DNA from: Cohnella candidum
GTDB lineage: Bacteria > Bacillota > Bacilli > Paenibacillales > Paenibacillaceae
Assembly (NCBI RefSeq): GCF_003713065.1
Contig: NZ_CP033433.1
Span: 1,585,001-1,649,000 of the forward strand
Length of the DNA stretch: 64,000 nucleotides
Reading direction: 5' to 3'
Positions 15,191 to 64,000 of the stretch are shown here, piece after piece. How positions within the stretch are numbered: position 1 is the first letter of the stretch; the number at the start of each line of letters is the position of its first letter. Below the pieces are notes generated by a model. It searched no databases. It had not been told where the DNA came from and saw only the letters and a list, made by a program, of their open reading frames with translations. A program made the translations under genes and the position numbers.

Positions 15191-15276
15191 TTGAAAGCCA
15201 GATCGGTCCCCAGTGAGCAGCAATTCGATGTCAGAAATCAATCAGACAGAACCGATCATCCGGTCCGGATGTCGGG

Positions 15277-15407
15277 GGACAAGAACATACATTCATTTAA
15301 ATCCACGCGCAGCGCGGCTTTTCATTTTATCGATGTAAGTTCTTGTCCTTGGGTCGGGACAAGAACTTACATCGATTCCCGATTGAGGACAAGAACTTGC
15401 ATTTTTT
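15277..15407. repeat. Inverted/direct repeat element, locus 1 (GGACAAGAA family)
   Basis: Four copies of a GGACAAGAA-headed unit: 15277 (GGACAAGAACATACATTCATT begins here), an inverted copy at 15329-15348, a perfect partner at 15357-15376, and a further direct copy at 15387 (30 bases on). The middle pair forms a perfect 20-base inverted repeat over an 8-base loop, and a CGCGCAGCGCG hairpin lies between the first two. The same architecture and spacing occur at 32841-32970 with a different but internally matching arm sequence. Confidence 0.75.
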
Positions 15408-15544
15408 GCCGCGTTCGGGCGAAAACCATAAAATTTACACCAGCTGCTGCAAATGTTGAGGGTTCGAAGAAGGGAGGACCGCTTGCGGACTAAATCACCC
15501 GCCGTAGTCCTCTTTTTTTCATTCGTCCAGCTTTGCAACGCGGC

Positions 15545-16026: not shown

Positions 16027-19000
16027 ATGCAATTTAGACAACTTAGAAAAGTATCAATGTTGTTTTTGAGTTTCCTAATTTTATGGACTGTACCTCAGTG
16101 GTCAGTTTCCGCACCTGGTAAGGCACACGCAAACGAAAAAGATTTGAATATTGAATCATTTACACAACAAGTCCCTAAAAAGAGAAACGAAAAAGTTGAA
16201 TTGATCGACAAACGAACGGCTAATTCGAAGCGCTGGTTAAACCCGGACGGTAGTTTTACTGAAGAAATTGCCATGAGGAACATTCATTACAAGAAGAATG
16301 GTAAGTTCGAGGATATTGACAATAATCTGACTCCAATTACGGATCCAAAATACAAATTCAAAAATAAAGCAAATCAATTCGATGTTAAATTTGCGGATTC
16401 TTCCTCAAATGATAAGTTCATTCTGTTTTCCGAGGGCTCTGCCTCCTTGGAGATGAAACCTGTGGGGTTCAAAACGAAGAACGCGGTTGTAAACGGAAAT
16501 AAAGTGCAGTACCAGACAGACAGCACGGAGACGGTTACGCCTGTTGGACTTGAGTATAATGTGGATAACAATGGTTTAAAAGAGGACATTGTCCTGGATC
16601 AGTATCATCCAGTTAATCTTATTTCTTTTGCGGTCAACCTGAATGGAGTCACCTATAAAACGGAAAAAGACGGCTCGATTGGTTTTTATGATGTGAACAC
16701 GAAGAAGAAACGTTGGTATATTAACCGTGCGTACATGGAAGATAATGCCCAGGCACACAGCGATGCTGTAACCATGACAGCCAGAGTGCAAGGTTCACAG
16801 CTCTTTATCGATATTGTTCCCGATGACACATGGTTAAAAGCTGCCGACCGTGTCTACCCGGTTCGCATTGATCCGACTATCCTACTTTATAACGATGGTC
16901 AAGATACATTCGTTTCCAAAAATAACCCCAATACAAACTATTCGACCGCAACTTATCTATCTGCGGGTTATGATTCCGCCAGTCTTGGGCTGACGCAGTC
17001 TTATGTATGGTTTACACTGCCCGTGCTTCCTGCAGGATCGTATGTACAAGGGGGCACTTTAAAGCTCTATCAATATGGTTCCGTTACACCTGGATCCAAT
17101 ACAGTAATTCAAGCCTATCGTGCGACTTCAGATTGGGCCGCGGAAACACTGAAATGGAGCAATAATAACGTTACGACGGTTGCCACCCCCGAGACGCTAA
17201 CAAGTTCACCGACTGGTGCGGGCTGGTATAACTTTGATGTAAAATCTGCGGTAGATAGCTGGTATAACAAAGGGGCCAACAATTTCGGTTTTGTAATCAA
17301 AGCATCTACAGACACTTCGGAACGCAGGCTCTTTTACGCTTTTAATTACACCAATAATGTAGATCTAACTCCTCGAATCTACTTGGACTACATCGTGAAT
17401 CCACTGGGTTACGAGGACCATTGGACTTACCAAACCGATGTCAATGTGGCAAACGGTAATTTAACATTCACGAATTCCGACGTCACGGTACCGGGTCGAA
17501 TCGCCACATCCGTTAGCCGAACCTACAATAGCAGATCCAGTTATGAAGGCATTTTCGGTTATGGATGGTTCTCCAGCCTGGAGGCAAGAATTTATCCCGT
17601 CGATAGGGGAAATATCTTGTACATTGATGCAGACCGCACGCTGCACACCTTCGAGCAGTCGGGAACGAGTTATATCGCGCCACCAGGCGTCGATGTAGAC
17701 CTGGTTAAGAATGTAGACGGCACATATAAAATGACAGACAAAGTCGGCACGGCATATAACTTTTCAAGTGCTGGGAACCTGACATCGATAACAGATGCCA
17801 ATAACAATACGTTAACATACGTGTATGGAACAAGCGGAAAAGTAGAGAGCATCAAGGATCCTGCCGGCAGGGTAACGGCAACCATCCAATATAATGCCAA
17901 CGGGAAAGTTTCTTCAGTTACGGATCTTGCAAATCACGTAACAACATACAGCTATACAGGCAATGATCTGACTCAAGTTACCCAGGCTAGCGGCACGGCC
18001 GAAGTCGTAACGATCCGTTATGAATATGATACGAGCCATAATTTGATCTCCATCACTGACCCGAAGGGGTACAAAACTTATTATTACTACACGACAGATC
18101 CTCAAAACCCTGATAAAGATGATCGGGTACAGAGCGTCAATCCCAATAATAAAATCCAAAATGCCAGCTTTGAAGTTGACTCAGACGGCGATACTTACCA
18201 TGTCCCTGACCGCTGGTCATACAATTCCGGACAAACGAATGCAACTGGAGTCGATGGTGTCGGAGTCCAAGGAACAAGAAGTTTAAAAATGACCGTATCC
18301 AGTCAATATTCCGTTTATTTTTCGGACTCCATTCCTGTTAACCGTACGCTAAACTACACGCTTAGCGGTATGATCAAAGCTACTCAAACAAGCGGTACTT
18401 TGAATACTGTTCTTTCGGTTATCGCTTTCGACAGTGCCAACACGAATCTTGGCGAGTTTGGGAAAATCACGCAGCCAGGCACCGTAATTACATGGAAAAG
18501 CGTGAATGCGACCATTGCAGCGAATACTTTGCCGGTGGGTACTTCATATGTAAAAGTTAAAACGGCCATCTCGAATACAACTGGCGCGAGCAGCTCTTGG
18601 TTTGATGCACTTCAACTGGAAGAGGGCACAACGGCTTCTTCGTTCATTGGACCCTTCACGCATACCGTGAACCCTCCGACCATGAATTCCGCTTTTTATG
18701 ATGAGAACGGCCGCAAGGTGTTTTATGCCTACAATGAGAACGGAAATATTGCGGAAGAGACACTCGACCCTATTAGTCAGAGTAATCCTGCGGGTCAGAA
18801 CTTAAAAACAACCTACACATACGCAAAAGATTCAGCAACCAAACGGATGAACAATGAAATAGAGAGCATTACCGATCCAAAAACAAACAAACAATTAACC
18901 AACCTATATGACGCTGGTTCAGGAAATCTTACTTCAAGCACTTTAGCGGATAACACTACATTCAACTATGAATATGACAATCAAAATAATCTTATTGCGT

Positions 19001-22000
19001 CAACCGACGGCACGATTGGGTCGTCAAACAAAACGAATTATTTTTATGATAATCTTCATAACTGGCTTGGGTCTAAGGATCCTTTAAACCGGCAGAGCGC
19101 TGTTTCGTATAATAAAGGCAATCTAACTGATGATTATCGTACGATGACTGCGGGTGAAAATCTTCTTCTCAACGCGAGCTTTGAAGAGGATGCCAACCAA
19201 GATTCCTGGCCGGACAGTTGGAATTCACCTGCGATAGCCGGTGCTGCTTCCGTAACATGGGGGTATGATGCGGAATTTGGCAGCAGGGGTCTAACTTTCA
19301 GTGGGATTACAGCGGGTTCTACTGCAATTGTAACGTCTGCCGACGTTGCAGTGGTTCCGGCATCACAATTCACCTTGAGCGCCTATTTTAAAGGATCTAC
19401 CGCTGACGCAGCGAAAGCGACCAAAATCAGATTGGAAGCAATGGATTCAAACCATGCCGTAATTTCCAGTTTTACGCAAGGTAATGTTGCGATCGGAGAA
19501 GTTAACGCATGGAATCGACTGCAAATCTCGCCTAATCAAGCATTGCCTGAACAAACTGCCTTTGTACATGTGGTGATTGAGGTAGGCGCCAACACAGGCA
19601 CGGTTAATTTTGACGGGGTTCAACTCGAAAATTCTTTCGTTATATCCGCTTATAATCTAATCGGTAATTCCAGTTTTGAACGAGGCAGTTCTACGCCGGA
19701 TGAGTGGAAGTACGTCCAAGGAAGCGGGCTCTCGATTGATACCGCGCAAATGGACAGCGGTAAGCGCAGCGTTACCGTTTCCAACCCCTTGTCGGCAATC
19801 CAATATGCACCGGTCAGCGACATTGCCATTCAATCAGGGAAAGGCTATTCATTTACCGGATTGATCAAATCGCAATCATCGGTCATTCCTAATGTTGATC
19901 TCAAAATCAATTTCTATGATGCCAATCACCAATTGATCTCGTCGATTATGGGAGACAAGCCATCCACGATCCCGATGGGTTGGGTGAGATTGTCCGTAAC
20001 ATCGGCAGCAGATCAAGTTCCGAACGGGGCTGTATTTGCCCTGCCGGTTATTGAGATCAACCCGTTCAATGGAACAATCTGGTTAGACAGCTTCCGAATG
20101 CAAGAAGGAAGCATCAAATCTTCTTTTAAGTACGACACAAATAACACCTATATCACACAGGTTCTCGATGAGCTTGGTCGAGTTACGACAATAGACTCTG
20201 ATACCGAGGGAAATCCGCTATTTGTCACTGACGCCAAAAATAATAAAACTTCCTACACCTATGACCTGTTCGACCGGTTGAAATCCGTTCAACTCCCAGG
20301 GGTTAACCTTAAGACGAATTACAGCTACGACTTGAATGGCAACCTGACGTCCACAAGTTATCAATCTACAGACGGATTGACGACGTATTCGAGTAAAACC
20401 AATGTCTATAATAAAAATGACCAATTGGTAAGCTCGACGGATGGTGTAGGTGAAACTACAACGTACGAGTACGAGGCCGGCAGCAACCTGGTGAAAGTAA
20501 GTTACCAGAACGGCAACAAAGTTGAATTCGGATACGACTCCGCGAACCGGTTGAACTCCATCAAATACAATGGTGTATTGAAATATTCGTACGAATACGA
20601 TGCGAATAGCAACATCACGAGAATCACTGACAAAATCACGAACAAAACTTGGACGTACACACCGGATACCTTGGATCGATTGCAAGAACAAACTGCTCCA
20701 GATAATAGTAAACTGAGCATCCAATACGTGCCGAACAGTGACGCTCGAAGTTCGATCACGGTCAGTGCGGGTACGACAAGCTTTAAGACGATTTTCCATT
20801 ACGGGATCAGCAATCTTCCGACTGAAGTCGTGGACCACAATCAGAATCTCAGCCGCTTCGCTTACGATGAAGAGGGCAATCTAACCCAACTTCAATTCGG
20901 TAACGGCACACAGTTACAGCAGCTGTACAATGAAGCCGGTGAGACGCTGAAAATGGTAAATACGAATTCCAATGGCGAGGTTCTCTCTTCTTCGGCTTAC
21001 CAGTACGATGACAATGGAAATCGAATCCAAGTAATCAACGAGATTGGGCAGAAGATCACTTATACGTATGACTCGTTAAACCAACTTCTTTCGGAAACGA
21101 ATCCGAAAGATGGAACCACGATTTCTTACTCCTATGATGTTTTAGGCAATCGGACGAAAAAAGAGATCAAAGACTCTGCAGGCAATGTGGTTAATACCTT
21201 TAGCTATAGCTATGACAAGGCGAATAAGCTGCTATCGGTAAATGGGCAAGCGTACACTTATGAGACTATGACTGGCTCAGGCGATAAAGCTGGAAACTTG
21301 ATCCAGGATAATAAACTTAAGTACAAATGGGATGAGTCAGGCCGGCTGTTTGAAGTTCGAAATAAGGTAGATGACGCTCTGCTCGGCCAATATGAGTACG
21401 ACGATACCGGTCGCAGAGTCAAGTCTACAGTAAATGGTGTTGTCACGAACTATCATTATGATGGGAACAGCATCAAGGTCTTGTACGAAACAGATGCCAA
21501 TGGTAATGTAACAAAGCTGTACACATACTCAACAGACGGTGTCTTGTTAAGTATGACTATTACGGGGCAAGGCACATACTATTATCAGTACAATGGTCAT
21601 GGTGATATTGTTGCCTTAACTGACCAAAATCAAGAGATCGTTGCGTCTTATGAATATGATGCATACGGGAACGTCTTAAGCAACACAGGGTCATTAGCCA
21701 ACTCAAATCCGTACCGCTATGCCGGATATCGTTACGATACTGAATCAGGGTTATACTATCTGATGGCCAGGTATTATAATGCAGATACCGGACGGTTTCT
21801 TTCGGAGGATACGTATGAAGGGGACTTAATTAGTCCTTTAAGTCAGAATCAACACACTTATGTAATAAATAATCCATTAAAATACGATGACCACTCAGGA
21901 AAATGCGTGTGGGATTTATGTATCGGTGAAACTGCTGCTGCAATCTGGGTGGCCGGTGCGATTGGAACTGCGGTTGCCGCCGGAGTCTCGGCCGCATTGA

Positions 22001-22290
22001 GTTTAGATCATGCAGGATACAATTTGTTTGCAACGAAGAAATCAAAAACAAATACTACGCAAAAAGAAAGAGATCCAAACCCACCGGCCAAAAGAAAGAA
22101 CTTTAGCTCAAAAAAAGATGCATATGAAGCTGCAAAAAAAGCTGGAAATGGCAGAGAACCTAGACTCGATGGACCAAAAGATGCAAAAGGACCGCATTAT
22201 CATCCTGATGTACCAGTACCAAAAGGACCGAAAACACCAAAGATGAATACACCACATGATCATTATTATTTTCCTAGAAGCCAATGGTGA
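16027..22290 (+). CDS. RHS/YD-repeat secreted toxin protein, WapA-like
   Basis: 2,087 aa. The N-terminus is a signal peptide (VSMLFLSFLILWTVPQWSVSAPGKAHA). About 30-290 is a WapA-type N-terminal region, then a DNRLRE domain (DGQDTFVSKNNPNTNYS...YNFDVKSAVDSWY). From about 480 to 1950 there are many YD repeats (YDxxGNLTSxT), interrupted by three jelly-roll carbohydrate-binding-like inserts that start NASFEVDSDGD, NASFEEDANQD and NSSFERGSSTP. The RHS core ends NPYRYAGYRYDTESGLYYL, ARYYNADTGRFLSEDTYEGD, INNPLKYDDHSGK. After that (from about 21901) comes an AT-richer 129-residue tip: a hydrophobic Ala/Gly stretch, a Lys/Asn linker and a closing domain with FSSKKDAYEAAKKAG, PHYHPDV and PHDHYYFPRSQW. 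Family knowledge: RHS cages deliver such tips as contact-dependent toxins. The His-rich end suggests a metal-dependent or nuclease-type activity, unproven. Confidence 0.9.
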   Translation: MQFRQLRKVSMLFLSFLILWTVPQWSVSAPGKAHANEKDLNIESFTQQVPKKRNEKVELIDKRTANSKRWLNPDGSFTEEIAMRNIHYKKNGKFEDIDNNLTPITDPKYKFKNKANQFDVKFADSSSNDKFILFSEGSASLEMKPVGFKTKNAVVNGNKVQYQTDSTETVTPVGLEYNVDNNGLKEDIVLDQYHPVNLISFAVNLNGVTYKTEKDGSIGFYDVNTKKKRWYINRAYMEDNAQAHSDAVTMTARVQGSQLFIDIVPDDTWLKAADRVYPVRIDPTILLYNDGQDTFVSKNNPNTNYSTATYLSAGYDSASLGLTQSYVWFTLPVLPAGSYVQGGTLKLYQYGSVTPGSNTVIQAYRATSDWAAETLKWSNNNVTTVATPETLTSSPTGAGWYNFDVKSAVDSWYNKGANNFGFVIKASTDTSERRLFYAFNYTNNVDLTPRIYLDYIVNPLGYEDHWTYQTDVNVANGNLTFTNSDVTVPGRIATSVSRTYNSRSSYEGIFGYGWFSSLEARIYPVDRGNILYIDADRTLHTFEQSGTSYIAPPGVDVDLVKNVDGTYKMTDKVGTAYNFSSAGNLTSITDANNNTLTYVYGTSGKVESIKDPAGRVTATIQYNANGKVSSVTDLANHVTTYSYTGNDLTQVTQASGTAEVVTIRYEYDTSHNLISITDPKGYKTYYYYTTDPQNPDKDDRVQSVNPNNKIQNASFEVDSDGDTYHVPDRWSYNSGQTNATGVDGVGVQGTRSLKMTVSSQYSVYFSDSIPVNRTLNYTLSGMIKATQTSGTLNTVLSVIAFDSANTNLGEFGKITQPGTVITWKSVNATIAANTLPVGTSYVKVKTAISNTTGASSSWFDALQLEEGTTASSFIGPFTHTVNPPTMNSAFYDENGRKVFYAYNENGNIAEETLDPISQSNPAGQNLKTTYTYAKDSATKRMNNEIESITDPKTNKQLTNLYDAGSGNLTSSTLADNTTFNYEYDNQNNLIASTDGTIGSSNKTNYFYDNLHNWLGSKDPLNRQSAVSYNKGNLTDDYRTMTAGENLLLNASFEEDANQDSWPDSWNSPAIAGAASVTWGYDAEFGSRGLTFSGITAGSTAIVTSADVAVVPASQFTLSAYFKGSTADAAKATKIRLEAMDSNHAVISSFTQGNVAIGEVNAWNRLQISPNQALPEQTAFVHVVIEVGANTGTVNFDGVQLENSFVISAYNLIGNSSFERGSSTPDEWKYVQGSGLSIDTAQMDSGKRSVTVSNPLSAIQYAPVSDIAIQSGKGYSFTGLIKSQSSVIPNVDLKINFYDANHQLISSIMGDKPSTIPMGWVRLSVTSAADQVPNGAVFALPVIEINPFNGTIWLDSFRMQEGSIKSSFKYDTNNTYITQVLDELGRVTTIDSDTEGNPLFVTDAKNNKTSYTYDLFDRLKSVQLPGVNLKTNYSYDLNGNLTSTSYQSTDGLTTYSSKTNVYNKNDQLVSSTDGVGETTTYEYEAGSNLVKVSYQNGNKVEFGYDSANRLNSIKYNGVLKYSYEYDANSNITRITDKITNKTWTYTPDTLDRLQEQTAPDNSKLSIQYVPNSDARSSITVSAGTTSFKTIFHYGISNLPTEVVDHNQNLSRFAYDEEGNLTQLQFGNGTQLQQLYNEAGETLKMVNTNSNGEVLSSSAYQYDDNGNRIQVINEIGQKITYTYDSLNQLLSETNPKDGTTISYSYDVLGNRTKKEIKDSAGNVVNTFSYSYDKANKLLSVNGQAYTYETMTGSGDKAGNLIQDNKLKYKWDESGRLFEVRNKVDDALLGQYEYDDTGRRVKSTVNGVVTNYHYDGNSIKVLYETDANGNVTKLYTYSTDGVLLSMTITGQGTYYYQYNGHGDIVALTDQNQEIVASYEYDAYGNVLSNTGSLANSNPYRYAGYRYDTESGLYYLMARYYNADTGRFLSEDTYEGDLISPLSQNQHTYVINNPLKYDDHSGKCVWDLCIGETAAAIWVAGAIGTAVAAGVSAALSLDHAGYNLFATKKSKTNTTQKERDPNPPAKRKNFSSKKDAYEAAKKAGNGREPRLDGPKDAKGPHYHPDVPVPKGPKTPKMNTPHDHYYFPRSQW

Positions 22291-22340: not shown

Positions 22341-23168
22341 TTGGATATGTTTACTGCAGCTCTAAAAGGAAATCTTAAAGCATTAAAAAAAATCATAAAT
22401 ACAGACAATATAAATGCTGGGGATAAAGATGGATATACAGCATTGCACTGGGCAAGTCAAAACGGACATGTAAATATAGTAAGATTTTTGCTTGCTAACG
22501 GAGCTAACCCTAATGTTATTGATTATGAAGGATTTACTCCCATAGAAGTTGCAACAACTCATGGAAATATTGAAGTAGTTAAGGCACTATTGGCAGTAGA
22601 GACGACCGACTTATCAATCACTCGTAATGGTTATACTCCGTTGCATTCTGCTGCAGCATGTGGGCATTTGGATATTTTACAGTTGTTAATTAGTGAAGGT
22701 ATGGATATTGAGTGCAGGGATTCAGGTGGTGTCGGATATACTCCATTGCACTGGGCTGTTCAAGAAAATCATTTCGATGTAACTAAATTCCTCGTAAGAA
22801 GAGGTGCAAATGTTAATGTAAAGGATGCAGATGGATTTTCTGCGCTGTACATTGCCGCGAGCAATGGATATATTGAAATCATTGGGCTTTTATTAAGTAG
22901 TGGCGCGGAAATTGATATTAAATGTGAAGGTTCAAAAAATTGTACTCCTCTTCATATTGCGGTTTGTTATGGCCATTTTGACTCAGTTAAAATGCTTATT
23001 AAACATAATGCCTCTCTAAATGCTATTGATAATAATGCACAAACATCGTTACACTATGCGTACATTAATAATCATTCCGAAATTATTTCCGTTTTAGAAG
23101 AACATGGCGCAGACACAACAATCAAGGATAGTTATGGAAAGCTTGCATCTGAATATTTAGATAGGTGA
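22341..23168 (+). CDS. Ankyrin-repeat protein, candidate immunity protein
   Basis: 275 aa made almost entirely of ankyrin repeats: a capping helix (FTAALKGNLKALKKII), seven full repeats of the form DGYTALHWASQNGHVNIVRFLL, and a closing half-repeat (SYGKLASEYLDR). No signal peptide, so cytoplasmic. It starts at TTG 22341 (or ATG 22347) after AGGAGGAG, 50 bases behind the RHS gene, and shares the low-GC composition of the RHS tip rather than of the RHS body. Ankyrin-repeat proteins are a known class of immunity protein beside polymorphic toxins. That and the position support an antitoxin role for the RHS tip; direct evidence is lacking. Confidence 0.85.
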   Translation: MDMFTAALKGNLKALKKIINTDNINAGDKDGYTALHWASQNGHVNIVRFLLANGANPNVIDYEGFTPIEVATTHGNIEVVKALLAVETTDLSITRNGYTPLHSAAACGHLDILQLLISEGMDIECRDSGGVGYTPLHWAVQENHFDVTKFLVRRGANVNVKDADGFSALYIAASNGYIEIIGLLLSSGAEIDIKCEGSKNCTPLHIAVCYGHFDSVKMLIKHNASLNAIDNNAQTSLHYAYINNHSEIISVLEEHGADTTIKDSYGKLASEYLDR

Positions 23169-32742: not shown

Positions 32743-32840
32743 CGTCAATGTGATCGCGTAATTTGCCCTATGCTGCTTTGTTGGTGTGTGGAAGTCATGA
32801 TGGAGGACGAATAAAACGGTAGCGGGAGGAAGGTGTCGGA

Positions 32841-32970
32841 GGACAAGAATATGTACCGATTCAATCCCGCGTAAATCGCGGGTTTTTAAATTTATCGGAA
32901 CAGATTCTTGTCACTTGCCGTGGTCAAGAATCTGTTCCGATTACCGAATGAGGCCAAGAAAGTGTTCCGA
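32841..32970. repeat. Inverted/direct repeat element, locus 2 (GGACAAGAA family)
   Basis: Same layout as 15277-15407: head unit at 32841 (GGACAAGAATATGTACCGATT begins here), a CCGCG..CGCGG hairpin, an inverted unit TCGGAACAGATTCTTG (32895-32910), its partner CAAGAATCTGTTCCGA (32925-32940) and a direct copy CAAGAAAGTGTTCCGA 30 bases later (32955-32970). The CAAGAA core is shared with locus 1 but the arm differs (CTGTTCCGA against TTACATCGA), and both arms changed together. Confidence 0.75.
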
Positions 32971-32989
32971 TTACCGACCGAATTGACAC

Positions 32990-33190
32990 AAGGAAACGAT
33001 TCAGAGAGTATTCGCCGACATGAAGGAAAAGCATGGCTAGCGATGGACGACCTTACGCGGACTGAAGAACATCACCATCAGGCGATGCTCGCTTATGCTG
33101 CAATGAACCTAAAAAAAATTAGCCTCTTGGCTCTGGCGCTCAGGTGGTTTCAACGATCCGCATAAACGAAATCAGTTGTTTGTCGCTTTC
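32990..33190 (+). pseudogene. C-terminal remnant of an IS1182-type transposase
   Basis: Segments HEGKAWLAMDDLTRTEEHHHQAML, AYAAMNLKKI and, in another frame, GGFNDPHKRNQLFVAFNYNKRLRF resemble the end of IS1182/DDE transposases (AMLxxAAMNLKKLA) and the conserved segment after it. At least one frameshift near 33125. An ACAAACGCC..GGCATTTGT hairpin follows at about 33190-33235. Only the tail is present. Confidence 0.45.
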
Positions 33191-59577: not shown

Positions 59578-59639
59578 GTGTTCATTGTGGCTGTGGACAG
59601 GTATCCTATAGGTACCTGTCCATTTGGATTTATTGTTAG

Positions 59640-59791
59640 GAGATCATGCTTCCGGGATTAATGGAATCGAAATCTGCAGACGGTTAAGGAGTCAACATGT
59701 AAAAACGCCCCTCATCTTGCTAACCGCAAGCGATACCGTGAAGGATCGTGTAACCGGGCTGCACTGCGGTGCGGACAATACATCATCGTGC
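59640..59791 (+). pseudogene. Response-regulator receiver fragment
   Basis: IMLPG (59645 region) then, after a one-base shift, INGIEICRRLRSQHVKTPLILLTASDTVKDRV, GLHCGADN. This is the middle of a receiver domain, very like residues 54-100 of the regulator at 48966 (ISGIEICRRLRSQHNKTPIIMLTARDSV). Both ends are missing. A former second two-component system, or a partial duplication of the first, has been deleted here. Confidence 0.75.
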
Positions 59792-59819
59792 GTGATATTG
59801 TTTTTTAAATTGAGTTCGG

Positions 59820-60162
59820 GGTGGATGCGTTCGACAGCAGACTTCTCGCAGTTGACGGATTCCACGTTTAGCCAATGCGTCAAACGAAGCCCTATTTGCT
59901 GGCGGTTGTTGAAGTCATCGCCAGCTACAAACTGGCCGGCATCAACCGCACGAAGCTGGAGGGGATACTCCACCGTATCTTTGCACCGGCTCAGCTCGAT
60001 CTCACCATCCGTGACCGTTTTGGCCGCCCTGTACGGCCAAAGGAATGGTTTCTTGTACCGCTGCAGGTGATTGACGAAGCGGTGCACCGTATACAGGATG
60101 GCTCGATTACCAATGTGGACTATGATCCCAAGACGGCTAGTTTGATTGTCCTTGCTCATTAA
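59820..60162 (+). pseudogene. C-terminal fragment of a GIY-YIG nuclease-family protein
   Basis: The frame reads GVDAFDSRLLAVDGFHV, a TAG, then MRQTKPYLLAVVEVIASYKLAGINRTKLE, LHRIFAPAQLDLTIRDRFGR, RPKEWFLVPLQVIDEAVHRI, ending at 60162. The segment FAPAxLDxxIxDRFGxPVxPxEWFLVPLxVIDEAVxRIxDG is the conserved C-terminal part of a GIY-YIG-type protein group. The N-terminal nuclease half is missing and an in-frame stop is present. It abuts the receiver fragment, so both are deletion debris. An ATG at 59875 could still give a 95-aa peptide. Confidence 0.55.
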
Positions 60163-60241: not shown

Positions 60242-60586
60242 CTATCTACTTTCAAACAATTGATCGATAAGTACCTGTATTTTCTTTAAATCTGAAATCG
60301 ACATGTCACTTAACTTATGAATAATATCATTCAATAATTTATCTTTTTCAGTCTTTTTAAAACGAAGATGTCTAGAGTATAAAAATAATTCATGTAGTGG
60401 AACCTCAAGCCCATCAGCTATTTTTTGAAGATTGAGAAGCGAGATATTTTTTTCTGCACGTTCAACTCCACCTATATAAGAAAAATGAAATCCGGAAATC
60501 TCCCCGAGTTCTTCTTGGGAGAGTTTTTTCTGTTGTCTTAAATCGCGAATTCTTCGTCCTACAGATTTCAATACCGTCTTCTCCAT
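60242..60586 (-). CDS. XRE-family transcriptional regulator
   Basis: 114 aa. HTH-3 domain about residues 8-65: VGRRIRDLRQQKKLSQEELGEISGFHFSYIGGVERAEKNISLLNLQKIADGL; then a short helical tail (ISDLKKIQVLIDQLFESR) for dimerisation. GAGGTGTACC precedes the ATG. It is divergent from the Mu-C-like gene with a TTGATA-N8-TATCAA dyad in between, the likely operator. Similar regulators often control integrative or transposable elements. Confidence 0.9.
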   Translation of the reverse strand: MEKTVLKSVGRRIRDLRQQKKLSQEELGEISGFHFSYIGGVERAEKNISLLNLQKIADGLEVPLHELFLYSRHLRFKKTEKDKLLNDIIHKLSDMSISDLKKIQVLIDQLFESR

Positions 60587-60659
60587 TGGTACACCTCAAA
60601 TTTAGTGTAATCAATGGGGAATGGAGGATACATGCATTGATTGGTATCATTCGACGTAG

Positions 60660-60679
60660 TTGATATTCATATGTATCAA
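60660..60679. promoter_or_regulatory. Dyad operator between xre and the Mu-C-like gene
   Basis: TTGATA (60660-60665), 8 bases, TATCAA (60674-60679): perfect inverted repeat in the divergent intergenic region. Fits an XRE dimer site. Confidence 0.5.
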
Positions 60680-60720
60680 ATTGATCGAAATTGCACATAC
60701 ATACTTATGAGGTGATCAAA

Positions 60721-61059
60721 ATGACAAAAAAAACCGAACTCATTGAGTTCGGCATGGCAACAGTTACTCCCTCTGGACTAAAATTTCAAGGGCGGATGTT
60801 TACAAATACGAAAATGATTAAAAATCAGTGGTTTCTCATGAGTCAGCTCTATGGAGAATGGGAAGTCCCTGTTATTTTTAAACCAGCCGCACCTGACTCA
60901 ATCGCAATACTGGATATTAAAGGGGTAGAAGTTGCTTCAACAGTTGTGGTTTCGCAAATTAGTGATCTCGACGTTAAGGAAGCTTATTTTGAAGCTTTCA
61001 ACAACTTGAAGACGCGGCTTGCATTACAAAGAAATTCATTGCATGACCCTGAAGACTGA
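60721..61059 (+). CDS. Stand-alone Mu-transposase C-terminal-like domain protein
   Basis: 112 aa. After an acidic start (MTKKTELIEFG) comes ATVTPSGLKFQGRMFTNTKM, WFLMSQLYGEWEVPVIFKPA, PDSIAILDIKGVEVASTVVV and a helical end (VKEAYFEAFNNLKTRLALQR). The order G-x-V-x-x-x-G-L-x-F-Q-G-R, V-P-V-x-x-x-P, I-A-I-L resembles the beta-barrel domain at the C-terminus of Mu/TnsB-type transposases (Mu-transpos_C), here without an integrase core. ATG 60721 follows GAGGTGATC. It meets the recombinase gene tail-to-tail (3 bases apart). Could be a fossil of a TnsB gene or a separate accessory DNA-binding protein. Confidence 0.6.
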   Translation: MTKKTELIEFGMATVTPSGLKFQGRMFTNTKMIKNQWFLMSQLYGEWEVPVIFKPAAPDSIAILDIKGVEVASTVVVSQISDLDVKEAYFEAFNNLKTRLALQRNSLHDPED

Positions 61060-61061
61060 TG

Positions 61062-62093
61062 CTAATCATCAAAAAGATCAGCGAGAAAACCATATTTCTG
61101 GATTGTCTCAATTCCTTGTCCGAATTGATTTTTTGTGGTGATCAAATCGGTCGTTTGAACAAGGTTCAGTCCAAATGAATGCCGAAGTTGTCTGTTCGTT
61201 AGTTCGGACTTACCATATGCTCGACCATATTTTTTAACCATTTCTTGAATCGCCCGTTTGGTCATGCGTTTACCCTGTTCAAAGCCATTTTGAATTGCAA
61301 GAAACAAACCATTTTCATTTGTTTCTGGAGAATATTTTTCTTCTCTAACTTTAATATATTTTTCGATTTTTTCAGCAGCAATGCTGCTGAGCTGCTTTAC
61401 TACGGTACTATCATTCATTCTCAAGACGATACTCTGTTCATTCATTAGAAAATCATCAATATTTAAATTTACTAAATCACTTACCCTTAAGCCCAAATGA
61501 AGTTGAAGGCTGATAATACATAAATCACGTTCACAGTCACGGTCAAAGCAAAAAATTGATTGCTTGTTCCTACGTTGATCCTGCCTATAGCGAAACTCAA
61601 TGAAGTGAATGAAATCAAATATCGAGTTCCGATCCAGCACTTTATCTTTGATTTTACGTGCAATTGATTGAGGATCTGCAGATCGTTTGATCGAGACTTT
61701 TCTGAATACATTACGCTTCAGCAATGGATTACCGCTTCTATCTTCTTCAACATCATTTAAATAGTTAAATAACGATCTAACCGAAGAAACTTTTCGTTGC
61801 ATCGTTTGAACGCTTTTACCAAGATCTTCAAGGATGTAATTCATAAACCGGTGTACATCATCAACAGTTAGAGCTTCCAGGTCAACTAACGTAATGTACA
61901 AGTAGTCATCCTTTTCATCAACGCAGTTGGACAACATCCACTCGAAAAAAAACTTATAATCTCGAAGGTATTCAAGAAGAGAAGAGGGCGACAAATCATC
62001 TCGTTTGTAATTTATGAACTTACGAACAAACTCCGGATAGCCTTCCATCAAAGTTAAAACCACCGATAAATCGTTCTTTTCTTGAATCCTCAA
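61062..62093 (-). CDS. Tyrosine recombinase (XerS/XerD-like phage integrase family)
   Basis: 343 aa. N-terminal SAM-like core-binding domain (about 10-115: FINYKRDDLSPSSLLEYLRDYKFFFEWM) and catalytic domain (about 150-335) with the Arg in LHLGLRVSDLVNL, the RH pair in NRQLRHSFGLN and the nucleophile Tyr in GIETIQKYGFL. The second-Arg box is LRHSF rather than HxLRHTxAT, a variant form. TTG 62093 follows GAGGTG. Between two XRE genes and beside tnsA; probably performs resolution or integration for the element. Confidence 0.88.
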   Translation of the reverse strand: MRIQEKNDLSVVLTLMEGYPEFVRKFINYKRDDLSPSSLLEYLRDYKFFFEWMLSNCVDEKDDYLYITLVDLEALTVDDVHRFMNYILEDLGKSVQTMQRKVSSVRSLFNYLNDVEEDRSGNPLLKRNVFRKVSIKRSADPQSIARKIKDKVLDRNSIFDFIHFIEFRYRQDQRRNKQSIFCFDRDCERDLCIISLQLHLGLRVSDLVNLNIDDFLMNEQSIVLRMNDSTVVKQLSSIAAEKIEKYIKVREEKYSPETNENGLFLAIQNGFEQGKRMTKRAIQEMVKKYGRAYGKSELTNRQLRHSFGLNLVQTTDLITTKNQFGQGIETIQKYGFLADLFDD

Positions 62094-62137
62094 CGCTCAA
62101 CACCTCTAATACTTTTTACCCTCCAGTTTATCCATTC

Positions 62138-62398
62138 TTATTCAGTTGAAGTCATTGTTTTGAGCGTTAATACGAAGGGCTCGTCTAAAATGCGAAGCAA
62201 TTTATATAGCGCAAATGCTGATAAGTGGTGTCTTCCTAATTCGATATTTGAAAGTGATGAACGTGAAAGATGATACCTCGAACAAAGTTGAGACTGAGTC
62301 CATTTTTTACTCATCCTTAAGCCCTTCAGATATTGACCTAGCCATATATAAAATTCCTCTTCGTTTATGATAATCTCCCCCTCGGCAAATCTATTCAT
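62138..62398 (-). CDS. XRE-family regulator (small)
   Basis: 86 aa. HTH-3: YLKGLRMSKKWTQSQLCSRYHLSRSSLSNIELGRHHLSAFALYKLLRILD, followed by a short tail. It starts 16 bases from, and divergently to, the tnsA-like gene, so its promoter overlaps that of the transposition genes and it is well placed to repress them. Confidence 0.85.
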   Translation of the reverse strand: MNRFAEGEIIINEEEFYIWLGQYLKGLRMSKKWTQSQLCSRYHLSRSSLSNIELGRHHLSAFALYKLLRILDEPFVLTLKTMTSTE

Positions 62399-62413
62399 TC
62401 TATAACTCTAGTA

Positions 62414-63196
62414 TTGCCAATAAACGTGTTTCATATAGCTGTAGAAAGCCTGTATAAGGAACTGGAAAAATGTTTAGGTTATAAACATCGAGTGGAAGGG
62501 GGAAACGGATTGTCTTCAACGTTTCAAACACCTGGATATTCCCCAATTGTGTTACCCAGAAACAAACGGTACGGGAATAACTGCTGGAACGCAGCTGGTC
62601 GAAAAGTCGGTCTCAGGGATATTGTGCTTTACAGCGATTTAGAATTTGACCACTGGCTTAATGTGGAATCCGACTATCGAGTACTTACGTACTGCGAACA
62701 GCCCTGTGAAATCGAATTTGTTCTTAAAGGAAAGAGACATACTTCGATCCTTGATATGTGGATCCTGTATGTAAATGGAAAGGTGCTTTTTATCGAGGTT
62801 AAATACGAAAAGGAGCTTCATCCACGGCATCGCCAATATGAACGGACAATGAGACAAATTGAAGCTCAGGAAACTTGGTGTAATCAGGAAGGAATTGGTT
62901 ACGAGGTTAGAACGGAAAAGCAAATACGTCGAAGTCGCTTTCTTATTCAGAACCAATTAAAAATAGTCTCGAGTGTCACCAATCATGAAAAACCTCACTG
63001 TGCAAATGAAGTGTTGAAGAATATAACGCAAAAGAAAAGGTTGGATGAAATTTATTCTGAAATGTATGAAAAAGTTGGGAAAGAAAATATTCATCTTGCT
63101 TGTCAATGGCTGATTTATGAGGGTCACATTCAAGCTGATTTAGATAATCAAATTTGGAGTAACCAATTGGAGGTATGGAGAAATGAGCAGGCTTAG
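62414..63196 (+). CDS. TnsA-like endonuclease
   Basis: 260 aa. N-terminal PD-(D/E)XK-type nuclease: LYSDLEFDHWLNVESDYRVLTYCEQPCEIEF, then HTSILDMWILYVNGKVLFIEVKYEKEL, with acidic residue in the first helix, Asp in LDMWI and the E-V-K signature. C-terminal winged-helix region (about 200-260: NEVLKNITQKKRLDEIYSEM...LIYEGHIQADLD), the part that binds TnsC in Tn7. TnsA makes the 5'-strand cuts in Tn7-type cut-and-paste transposition. TTG 62414 is the longest start; GTG 62426 is possible, neither with a clear ribosome site. Overlaps the tnsB-like gene by 14 bases. Confidence 0.8.
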   Translation: MPINVFHIAVESLYKELEKCLGYKHRVEGGNGLSSTFQTPGYSPIVLPRNKRYGNNCWNAAGRKVGLRDIVLYSDLEFDHWLNVESDYRVLTYCEQPCEIEFVLKGKRHTSILDMWILYVNGKVLFIEVKYEKELHPRHRQYERTMRQIEAQETWCNQEGIGYEVRTEKQIRRSRFLIQNQLKIVSSVTNHEKPHCANEVLKNITQKKRLDEIYSEMYEKVGKENIHLACQWLIYEGHIQADLDNQIWSNQLEVWRNEQA

Positions 63197-64000
63197 AATT
63201 CATGAAAAGGAAGGGCTTCTTCCTGAGCAAGTGAACCCAGAGGTATGGCCAACTGTGGACGAACAATCTTTAAGTGAAACTTCAAGAGATATTTACAATC
63301 GTCGCCGAGAGGCAGTGATTATGTATTTCAAACGAGAGGCTGACCTTACCGAAATTAAAGAAAAAACAGGAGTAGACGAACAGAGCGTTCGGCGACTAAT
63401 TAAGCGATGCATGAGTTTAGACGGGCACGGAACAATTTGGGGGTTTCGAGCTTTAATCCCACAAAAGAAAGTCAAAAAGTATGAGCTTAATCCTTTGAAT
63501 ACAGCGAGAAACGAAACAAGAAAATCTGGTGAGTTTAATTTACTGCTTGCTAAGTATCCAGATATTAAGGATTTAATCGATGATCTTTACTTAGGCAGGA
63601 ATCGAAGGACATTGGAACCGGCTATGAAACCTAAGAGCATACATAAGAAGCTGATTGAAGAATGTCGTAAAAAAGAAATTCCATTGTCGGCCTATCCCTT
63701 TAATACAAAGCACATGGGATATAAAGCATTGCAACGTTATTTGAATCGCTTAGCTTACTTATACTTTGGCAAAGCAGTTTCCCGGTTCGGACATGATGCT
63801 GAACAAAAAGCCAGACATACGGGAGAAGGGGAGCAGAATCATCCGTCGACAATTCCGCCTTATCAGAAAATTCAATTTGATGCGCACCGCATCGATGGAT
63901 TTTTCGCAGTCAAGATCAAGACTCCAGAAGGTGACGAAGTCACCAAAGTCCTCGATCGCTTCTGGATACTAACCATAATTGACGTCGCAACGCGAAACAT
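63183..64000 (+). CDS. TnsB-like transposase, N-terminal part, cut by the window edge
   Basis: 272 codons visible and still open at the end. ATG 63183 follows GGAGGTATGG within the end of tnsA. N-terminal helix-turn-helix region: YNRRREAVIMYFKREADLTEIKEKTGVDEQSVRRLIKRCM, then GTIWGFRALIPQ; a second DNA-binding region (KSIHKKLIEECRKKEIPLSA...GYKALQRYL). The integrase core begins near the edge: YQKIQFDAHRIDGFF (first catalytic Asp area) and RFWILTIIDVATRN. This is the layout of TnsB/Mu-type transposases. The rest of the element (TnsC, TniQ/TnsD-like, cargo) should lie downstream. Confidence 0.8.
   Translation, partial: MSRLRIHEKEGLLPEQVNPEVWPTVDEQSLSETSRDIYNRRREAVIMYFKREADLTEIKEKTGVDEQSVRRLIKRCMSLDGHGTIWGFRALIPQKKVKKYELNPLNTARNETRKSGEFNLLLAKYPDIKDLIDDLYLGRNRRTLEPAMKPKSIHKKLIEECRKKEIPLSAYPFNTKHMGYKALQRYLNRLAYLYFGKAVSRFGHDAEQKARHTGEGEQNHPSTIPPYQKIQFDAHRIDGFFAVKIKTPEGDEVTKVLDRFWILTIIDVATRN

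Follow-up and report, generated by a model that had tools for sequence, protein, structure and literature searches.

A Tn7-like transposon of Cohnella candidum that probably homes to the chromosomal dif site

The transposon described here lies in a 64,000-nucleotide stretch of the Cohnella candidum chromosome, hereafter the window (NZ_CP033433.1, a single 5,289,049-bp contig, positions 1585001-1649000), and extends beyond its right edge, where coordinates above 64000 carry on the window numbering (L009 position plus 58000). It is probably (about 0.8) a 53.6-kb cut-and-paste Tn7-like transposon, equipped with TnsA and TnsB, TnsC and a TnsD-like TniQ, that homes to the chromosomal recombination site dif. 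This reading draws on direct observation of the ends, the target duplication, their spacing and orientation, the identity of dif by position and copy number, the gene content and the loss of catalytic residues in two accompanying tyrosine recombinases (YR1 and YR2).

Results

The transposon and its ends

A first-pass annotation of positions 60242-64000 had described an xre regulator gene (xre1), a Mu-C-like gene, a Xer-type recombinase, a second xre (xre2), tnsA and the start of tnsB, and had interpreted them as a Tn7-like module whose cargo and further genes lay out of sight. These genes are real and arranged as claimed, with profile matches, and both tnsC and tniQ were found past 64000, in keeping with a Tn7-like element; the absence of a TnsC-like ATPase downstream, which the annotation had named as a ground for rejecting its proposal, is contradicted by tnsC at 65188-66156. 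On the plus strand, tnsA (TnsA_N PF08722, 7.9e-15) occupies positions 62510-63196. Its longest open reading frame opens at 62414, and the likely start is the TTG at 62510, preceded by the strong ribosome-binding sequence AAGGGGGAAACGGA; TnsA of relatives likewise starts about 30 residues later than the 62414 frame. Because of these two observations, the gap between xre2 and tnsA is placed at about 111 bp, the 16 bases reported earlier being an artefact of the first TTG. The divergence of tnsA from xre2 and its overlap with tnsB (14 bp) stood as described.

The tnsB gene runs on the plus strand from 63183 to 64000 in the window and on to 65171 (L009:5183-7171), encoding 662 amino acids (aa). 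Its match to Pfam rve is weak (E 0.015), and the residues D233, D337 and E374, invariant in 15 relatives, identify the product as a DDE transposase. The TnsC protein (L009:7188-8156) matches PF13401 (9.4e-12) and the TniB family PF05621 (1.7e-11), as befits an AAA+ regulator. The tniQ gene (66169-67659; L009:8169-9659) encodes a long, TnsD-like protein of 496 aa that scores under the cut-off against Pfam TniQ (1e-4), has zinc-finger Cys/His residues invariant among 30 homologues, and yields a structure model matching both TniQ (8fcu) and TnsD (8v32), which places it among the TniQ/TnsD selectors. Every feature tested for Tn7-like membership was present.

To delimit the element, an end consensus was derived by comparing relatives, and the whole stretch was scanned with it, which placed the left end at 15270. 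This end (15270-15430, plus strand) carries TGTCGGGGGACAAGAACATACATTC, an inverted pair of TnsB-type sites at approximately 15333-15372 and an extra site at 15387, a layout that is the same in relatives. The right end (68759-68853; L009:10759-10853), situated directly after YR2, consists of tandem TnsB-type sites terminating in GTTCTTGTCCTTCGACA at 68853. Identical CCGGA pentamers stand outside both ends, at 15265-15269 and 68854-68858 (L009:10854-10858). Thus, the TGT-type ends and 5-bp duplication that the annotation had advised looking for are in place, and TGT...ACA ends, several TnsB sites and a 5-bp duplication are the pattern of Tn7-like elements. Bounded by two mapped ends and a matching duplication, the element is a complete Tn7-like transposon spanning 15270-68853 (53,584 bp) and reaching well past the annotated piece on both sides; its previously unseen cargo, of about 45 kb, lies upstream of tnsA. 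A left end just upstream of xre1 was considered and discarded, as no site exists there and the real one is 45 kb further left, and the mapped ends rule out a five-gene module without cargo. Paired 5-bp duplications were also recovered in four relatives (G113, TATAA; G082, GCAAT; G126, ACAAA; G186, ACGAC), and in G032 the left-end flank candidate ACAAT and the right-end flank ATTAT gave no matching pair. Outside the element, the flanks hold a DinB-family gene and an AAA-type kinase-like gene.

The insertion site lies beside dif

The outer flanks of the right ends of relatives have no common gene context but share a motif, ACATATGTAYAAAATACNRGTTTTGTG, which occurs in 381 of 400 Paenibacillaceae genomes, in exactly one copy in 367 of them, with a reversed-pattern control giving 0. 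In C. candidum the single copy stands outside the element at 68896-68926 in window numbering (chromosomal position 1,653,896). The dnaA gene is at 4,243,858 of 5,289,049, so that its antipode falls at 1,599,333. GC skew changes sign at the motif: values are +0.03 to +0.09 in most bins left of the right end and -0.05 to -0.15 to the right of it. The motif, laid out as TATGTACAAAA-TACGGG-TTTTGTGAAAA, is an inverted repeat with the 11-6-11 arrangement of a Xer site, and an intact host XerS is encoded about 42 kb away. We identify the motif as the predicted dif because of its copy number, its position at the terminus, the GC-skew switch, the 11-6-11 layout and the presence of intact XerS in the genome. 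The centre of the Paenibacillaceae dif is apparently 6 bp, not 11 as in difSL (PMC5357621).

The right end is separated from dif by 42 bp. Of 17 measured insertions, 16 have their right end 37-50 bp from the motif, and the remaining one stands 63 bp away. Neither the window nor the full length of the element yielded a second copy of dif. Integrative elements that use Xer (IMEX-type) form their junctions by crossover within dif, whereas here dif is intact and the junction, 42 bp away, is marked by a 5-bp duplication.

Related elements recur and stack beside dif

The association was scored for 43 TnsB genes on dif-bearing contigs, 14 further TnsB matches on contigs without dif being left unscored. 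Forty of the 43 genes lie within 100 kb of dif; 37 share the same side and strand at that range (31 of them within 20 kb), and three lie within 7 kb in mirror side or orientation. Furthermore, in Bacillaceae-type relatives (L184, L191, L202, L206 and L215), with the genera Bacillus, Fictibacillus, Anoxybacillus, Aneurinibacillus and Virgibacillus represented, the right end stands 39-56 bp from the canonical XerCD-type dif, AGTTTACATAATATATATTATAGGAAGT, which is dissimilar to the XerS-type dif of Paenibacillaceae, the homing distance being the same. The letters of the Bacillus dif used as a probe gain support from turning up repeatedly next to the elements. L190 (B. pumilus) is compatible with the same adjacency, its right end being less certain.

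Related left ends are found repeatedly on a single side of dif, all facing the same way. The 577 kb left of dif in G135 (C1:4422858-4999342, loci L261-L280) contain 18 left-end-like sequences on one strand, and we interpret this stretch as a zone in which old elements have accumulated. In L061 a right end is joined to a left end with just 5 bp between them, and in G186 the same duplication flanks the outermost left and right ends, with further TnsB genes in between. The C. candidum cargo itself contains a second, diverged left end of slightly different type (32834-33000, plus strand), the predicted remnant of another dif-homing element. The shared outer duplication in G186 and the extra left end at 32834 suggest that stacked elements may later move as one block.

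The element carries degenerate XerS-like recombinases

Two tyrosine recombinase genes accompany the transposition genes. YR1 (61062-62093, minus strand; Phage_integrase, 5.2e-15) is the Xer-type gene of the first annotation, and YR2 (67656-68741; L009:9656-10741), which overlaps tniQ by 4 bp, is a further XerS-like gene past the window. As in the XerS/difSL system (PMC5357621), XerS is the model that both match best and the host XerS is intact, the catalytic R-H-R-H-Y set being complete in 24/24 genomes; unlike XerS, however, both proteins are element-borne, catalytically degenerate and under the NCBIfam equivalog cut-off of 267 bits (259 bits for YR1, 144 for YR2). They align to XerS over their full length, without a zinc-finger extension, and probably descend from XerS-type recombinases. 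Of the catalytic residues, YR1 and YR2 still have Arg-I, Arg-II and Tyr but neither His, and thus do not qualify as active XerS. Across 13 element copies, both His are lost in 13 and Tyr is kept in 13, with Arg-I lost in 10 and Arg-II in 7. Despite these losses, ratios of non-synonymous to synonymous substitution (dN/dS) of 0.13-0.22 among closer pairs denote purifying selection, and YR1 relatives form one clade separate from host XerS (support 99/97).

YR1 relatives occur in a subset of elements only, between the Mu-C-like gene and xre2, a slot shared by at least nine, or left of xre1. This patchy distribution excludes a YR as an essential partner, and the earlier definition of the element by a heteromeric transposase paired with a working Xer recombinase is not upheld, the YR being neither constant nor catalytically complete. 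The hallmark of the family is insertion beside dif, which was invisible in the annotated piece. YR1 and YR2 are most likely dif-tuned DNA-binding accessory or regulatory factors rather than integrases, to judge from their residues.

A second, different degenerate tyrosine recombinase of about 450-527 aa (YRb) is encoded between tnsC and tniQ in L077 (11129-12670), L078, L079, L214 and L219, its Arg-I reading His in L077 (GLHLVE), and similar proteins are encoded in L046, L054 and L218, either between tnsC and tniQ or after tniQ. YRb is a possible TnsF-like selector. Separately, in another species of the genus, a broken YR2 homologue with 58% identity lies beside dif with no tns genes nearby (G019:C50:45843-46425, locus L283). 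Catalytically intact XerS-like genes were seen near dif or a dif-like sequence at L065:18323-19393 (62 bp away), L064:4806-5876 and L183:16516-17658; these probably serve as integrases for a mobile element of another, Xer-type kind that uses the same hot spot.

A conserved cassette precedes the transposition genes

Ahead of tnsABC-tniQ stand xre1 (60242-60586, minus strand; 114 aa, HTH_3, 1.7e-13), the gene for a stand-alone Mu-C-like beta-barrel protein (60718-61059, plus strand; 112 aa counted from the ATG at 60721) and xre2 (62138-62398, on the minus strand like YR1; 86 aa). The three recur in the same order and on the same strands in about 30 Paenibacillaceae elements. Of the five-gene set expected in other genomes, this module thus reappeared, whereas the Xer-type protein was confined to a subset and to several positions; the XRE genes are not the chance neighbours that the annotation had allowed for. 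Its Mu-C call proved weak by sequence (Pfam E 0.1; no significant Mu-C homology by hhalign), and support comes from the fold, as the AlphaFold2 model (pLDDT 83) has Tn7 TnsB (7pik) as its only PDB matches at probability 1.00. We infer that the cassette regulates tnsABC-tniQ; the Mu-C-like protein, resembling the TnsB barrel, may modulate TnsB. In L053, L055-L058, L062, L158 and L161-L167, a 279-aa protein with no Pfam match is encoded convergently with xre1, mostly in elements that also bear YR1 relatives.

Discussion

How dif may be recognised

In the mechanism that we propose, TniQ would read either dif itself or the site with the host Xer recombinase bound to it, and would recruit TnsC, which in turn would bring TnsA and TnsB, so that the ends would be joined 37-63 bp from dif and leave it undamaged. 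The two XRE proteins and the Mu-C-like protein would regulate the operon, and the YRs would act as dif-tuned DNA-binding accessories. TniQ is the likely dif reader, because elements without a recognisable YR (L043-L045, L047-L050 and others) home to dif as well, and at the same distance. Several points weigh against this interpretation. The binding of TniQ to dif is a putative step. Three of the 43 TnsB genes stray: those of G292 and the second copy in G321 are far from dif, and that of G200 is close to it but wrongly oriented. The dif-distal genes mean that dif homing is not shared by all Tn7-like elements. YR1 and YR2 may have residual activity, given the R, R and Y that they keep; most dif-adjacent relatives lack a YR, so that a targeting role for it is not general; and YR2 forms a very long branch of uncertain origin in the tree.

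The homing reading leaves room for two objects of recognition, DNA and bound protein. That one family stands at equal distance from the XerS-type dif of Paenibacillaceae and the XerCD-type dif of Bacillaceae, although the two sequences are dissimilar, leads us to favour the bound protein somewhat. In the strict form of this idea, the element senses host Xer at dif, as proposed for the Tn5053-type 'res site hunters', and TniQ does not read the DNA, which we consider quite possible at less than even odds. The intact XerS of all 24 genomes tested suits it, as does the proposal that IS1202-type dif hunters contact bound XerC (PMC10132070), but the long TnsD-like TniQ could in principle bind DNA itself, and its specificity may have re-evolved, the TnsB proteins concerned being only 42-47% identical. 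It is doubtful, instead, that the YRs select dif while TniQ merely bridges. They stem from the very protein family that binds dif, YR2 overlaps tniQ, a YR2 remnant lies beside dif in G019, the unrelated YRb sits between tnsC and tniQ in the dif-adjacent L077, L078, L214 and L219, and the inactivated tyrosine recombinase TnsF, operonic with tniQ, selects comM (PMC10293859); nevertheless, the elements without a recognisable YR keep the same distance, YR1 is paired with xre2 rather than tniQ, and TniQ here is long, unlike the 369-aa TniQ aided by TnsF. A broader and tentative idea is that a Tn7-like family domesticated a copy of the host chromosome-dimer recombinase, whose catalysis decayed, as a dif-binding guide or sensor; transposition would be steered to dif, possibly coupled to chromosome termination or division, and successive dif-side insertions would build arrays later movable en bloc.

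Other explanations fit the data poorly. Were YR1 and YR2 working Xer recombinases, the element would integrate or resolve by site-specific recombination at dif, and the retained Arg-I, Arg-II and Tyr, together with the intact XerS-like genes beside dif in L064 and L065, could be read in that way; the loss of both His in every element copy, junctions with TGT/ACA ends and a duplication, lying about 42 bp from dif rather than at a crossover inside it, and the lack of a second dif make this highly improbable. Terminus regions collect foreign DNA, and elements might accumulate there through insertion tolerance or a TnsE-like preference for terminating replication, dif going unrecognised. Places where replication terminates are among the insertion sites of Tn7 itself (Peters and Craig 2000, as cited in PMC11406308). 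Such accumulation is already contradicted by more than 20 insertions that keep a spacing of 37-63 bp from a 27-bp motif and mostly face the same way, and dif-distant TnsB relatives in the same genomes argue that clustering is not general, leaving it very little credence. Finally, as most relatives lack a YR, the Xer, Mu-C and xre genes might have no connection with the Tn7-like core beside which they lie. We give this almost no weight, since xre1, the Mu-C-like gene and xre2 hold order and strand across related elements, which contradicts it for these three, YR1 keeps its slot under purifying selection, and all four genes lie within the mapped ends.

Relation to known systems

The element resembles Tn7 and Tn7-like transposons in its TnsA, DDE TnsB, TnsC and TnsD-like TniQ, in its TGT...ACA ends with repeated TnsB sites and 5-bp duplication, and in the set distance from a conserved site that is left intact. 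Unlike canonical Tn7, it is not inserted downstream of glmS, and unlike known Tn7-like elements it lies at a non-coding recombination site, dif, rather than at glmS, tRNA, parE or comM, with cargo upstream of tnsA, tniQ and YR2 next to the right end, and both the xre1/Mu-C-like/xre2 cassette and degenerate XerS-like proteins present. The IS1202 family of insertion sequences (IS), ISAjo2 group, comprises DDE elements termed 'dif site hunters' that share a TnsB-like transposase, TGT/ACA ends, a 5-bp duplication and a fixed orientation and distance beside dif (PMC10132070). However, IS1202 is a 1.5-kb single-gene IS of Acinetobacter located 5 bp from the XerC site of dif, whereas the present element has full TnsABC-TniQ and large cargo, at about 42 bp. 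TnsF of Tn6022, which has tandem core-binding domains, a partial catalytic domain and zinc fingers at its N terminus, binds both TniQ and the target DNA, and target selection depends on it (PMC10293859). Both cases involve an inactivated tyrosine recombinase recruited by a Tn7-like element and encoded by a gene overlapping or adjoining tniQ; in contrast to TnsF, YR1 and YR2 are full-length and XerS-like, their element lies beside dif, and their role is putative. Tn5053 targets the res sites of serine resolvases and lacks TnsA. Like Tn5053/Tn402, the 'res site hunters' of work cited in PMC11406308, the present element bears TniQ and lies beside a recombination site whose recombinase is encoded elsewhere, but this site is dif of the Xer recombinases, and tnsA is present.

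We found no prior description of a TnsABC-TniQ family at dif in the literature searched, mostly without subscription papers and preprints, and dif goes unmentioned in two surveys of Tn7-like elements; TnsF, a dead recombinase acting as selector, and the dif hunters of the IS1202 family come closest as precedents. Most bacterial chromosomes contain dif, usually as a unique and non-coding site, and its recombinase is needed for dimer resolution, which makes the site an ideal safe harbour. If correct, a dif-homing TnsABC-TniQ family would constitute a new protein-guided target class for Tn7-like elements and would explain the one-sided accretion of foreign DNA at the Paenibacillus chromosome terminus. 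Natural TniQ variants matched to two dif sequences would offer a route to ask how TniQ chooses targets, making the choice between sequence and bound protein directly testable. After TnsF, the degenerate XerS-like proteins are the second candidate for a tyrosine recombinase recruited by Tn7-like elements.

Cargo and other carried genes

The cargo (15431-60241, about 45 kb) comprises an RHS/ankyrin pair, IS elements and an envelope-stress cluster; its two-component systems, IS elements and some names were assigned by reading translations. An RHS-repeat protein of 2087 aa (16027-22290) is followed by an ankyrin-repeat protein (22341-23168), the two resembling a polymorphic-toxin/immunity pair. 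Positions 35912-59577 encode DUF212/PAP2, an MGDG-synthase-like glycosyltransferase, ABC transporters, BacA/UppP, a DedA-type protein, NlpC/P60, two two-component systems and an FtsX/MacB permease, which looks like an envelope-stress or bacitracin-type resistance set. No serine recombinase appeared among the annotated genes, part of the cargo open reading frames having been scanned.

Ku genes were noted beside xre1 in the dif-homing relatives L045, L046, L047, L049-L052, L054, L061 and L079, and between tniQ and the right end in L060 and L170, with an ATP-dependent DNA ligase in L059 and L060. Cut-and-paste transposition leaves a break at the donor site, which such carried Ku and ligase could repair. 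A Ku gene beside xre1 as the chromosomal target was not favoured, since the ligase and Ku of L060 sit inside the element, between tniQ and the right end. The host genome has three Ku genes (G000:C1:1235507, 3308810 and 4844658; loci L087-L089), none within the element. Just left of xre1, positions 59624-60162 contain the degraded remains of a response regulator and the C-terminal part of a GIY-YIG-like (MUG113) protein, probably decayed cargo.

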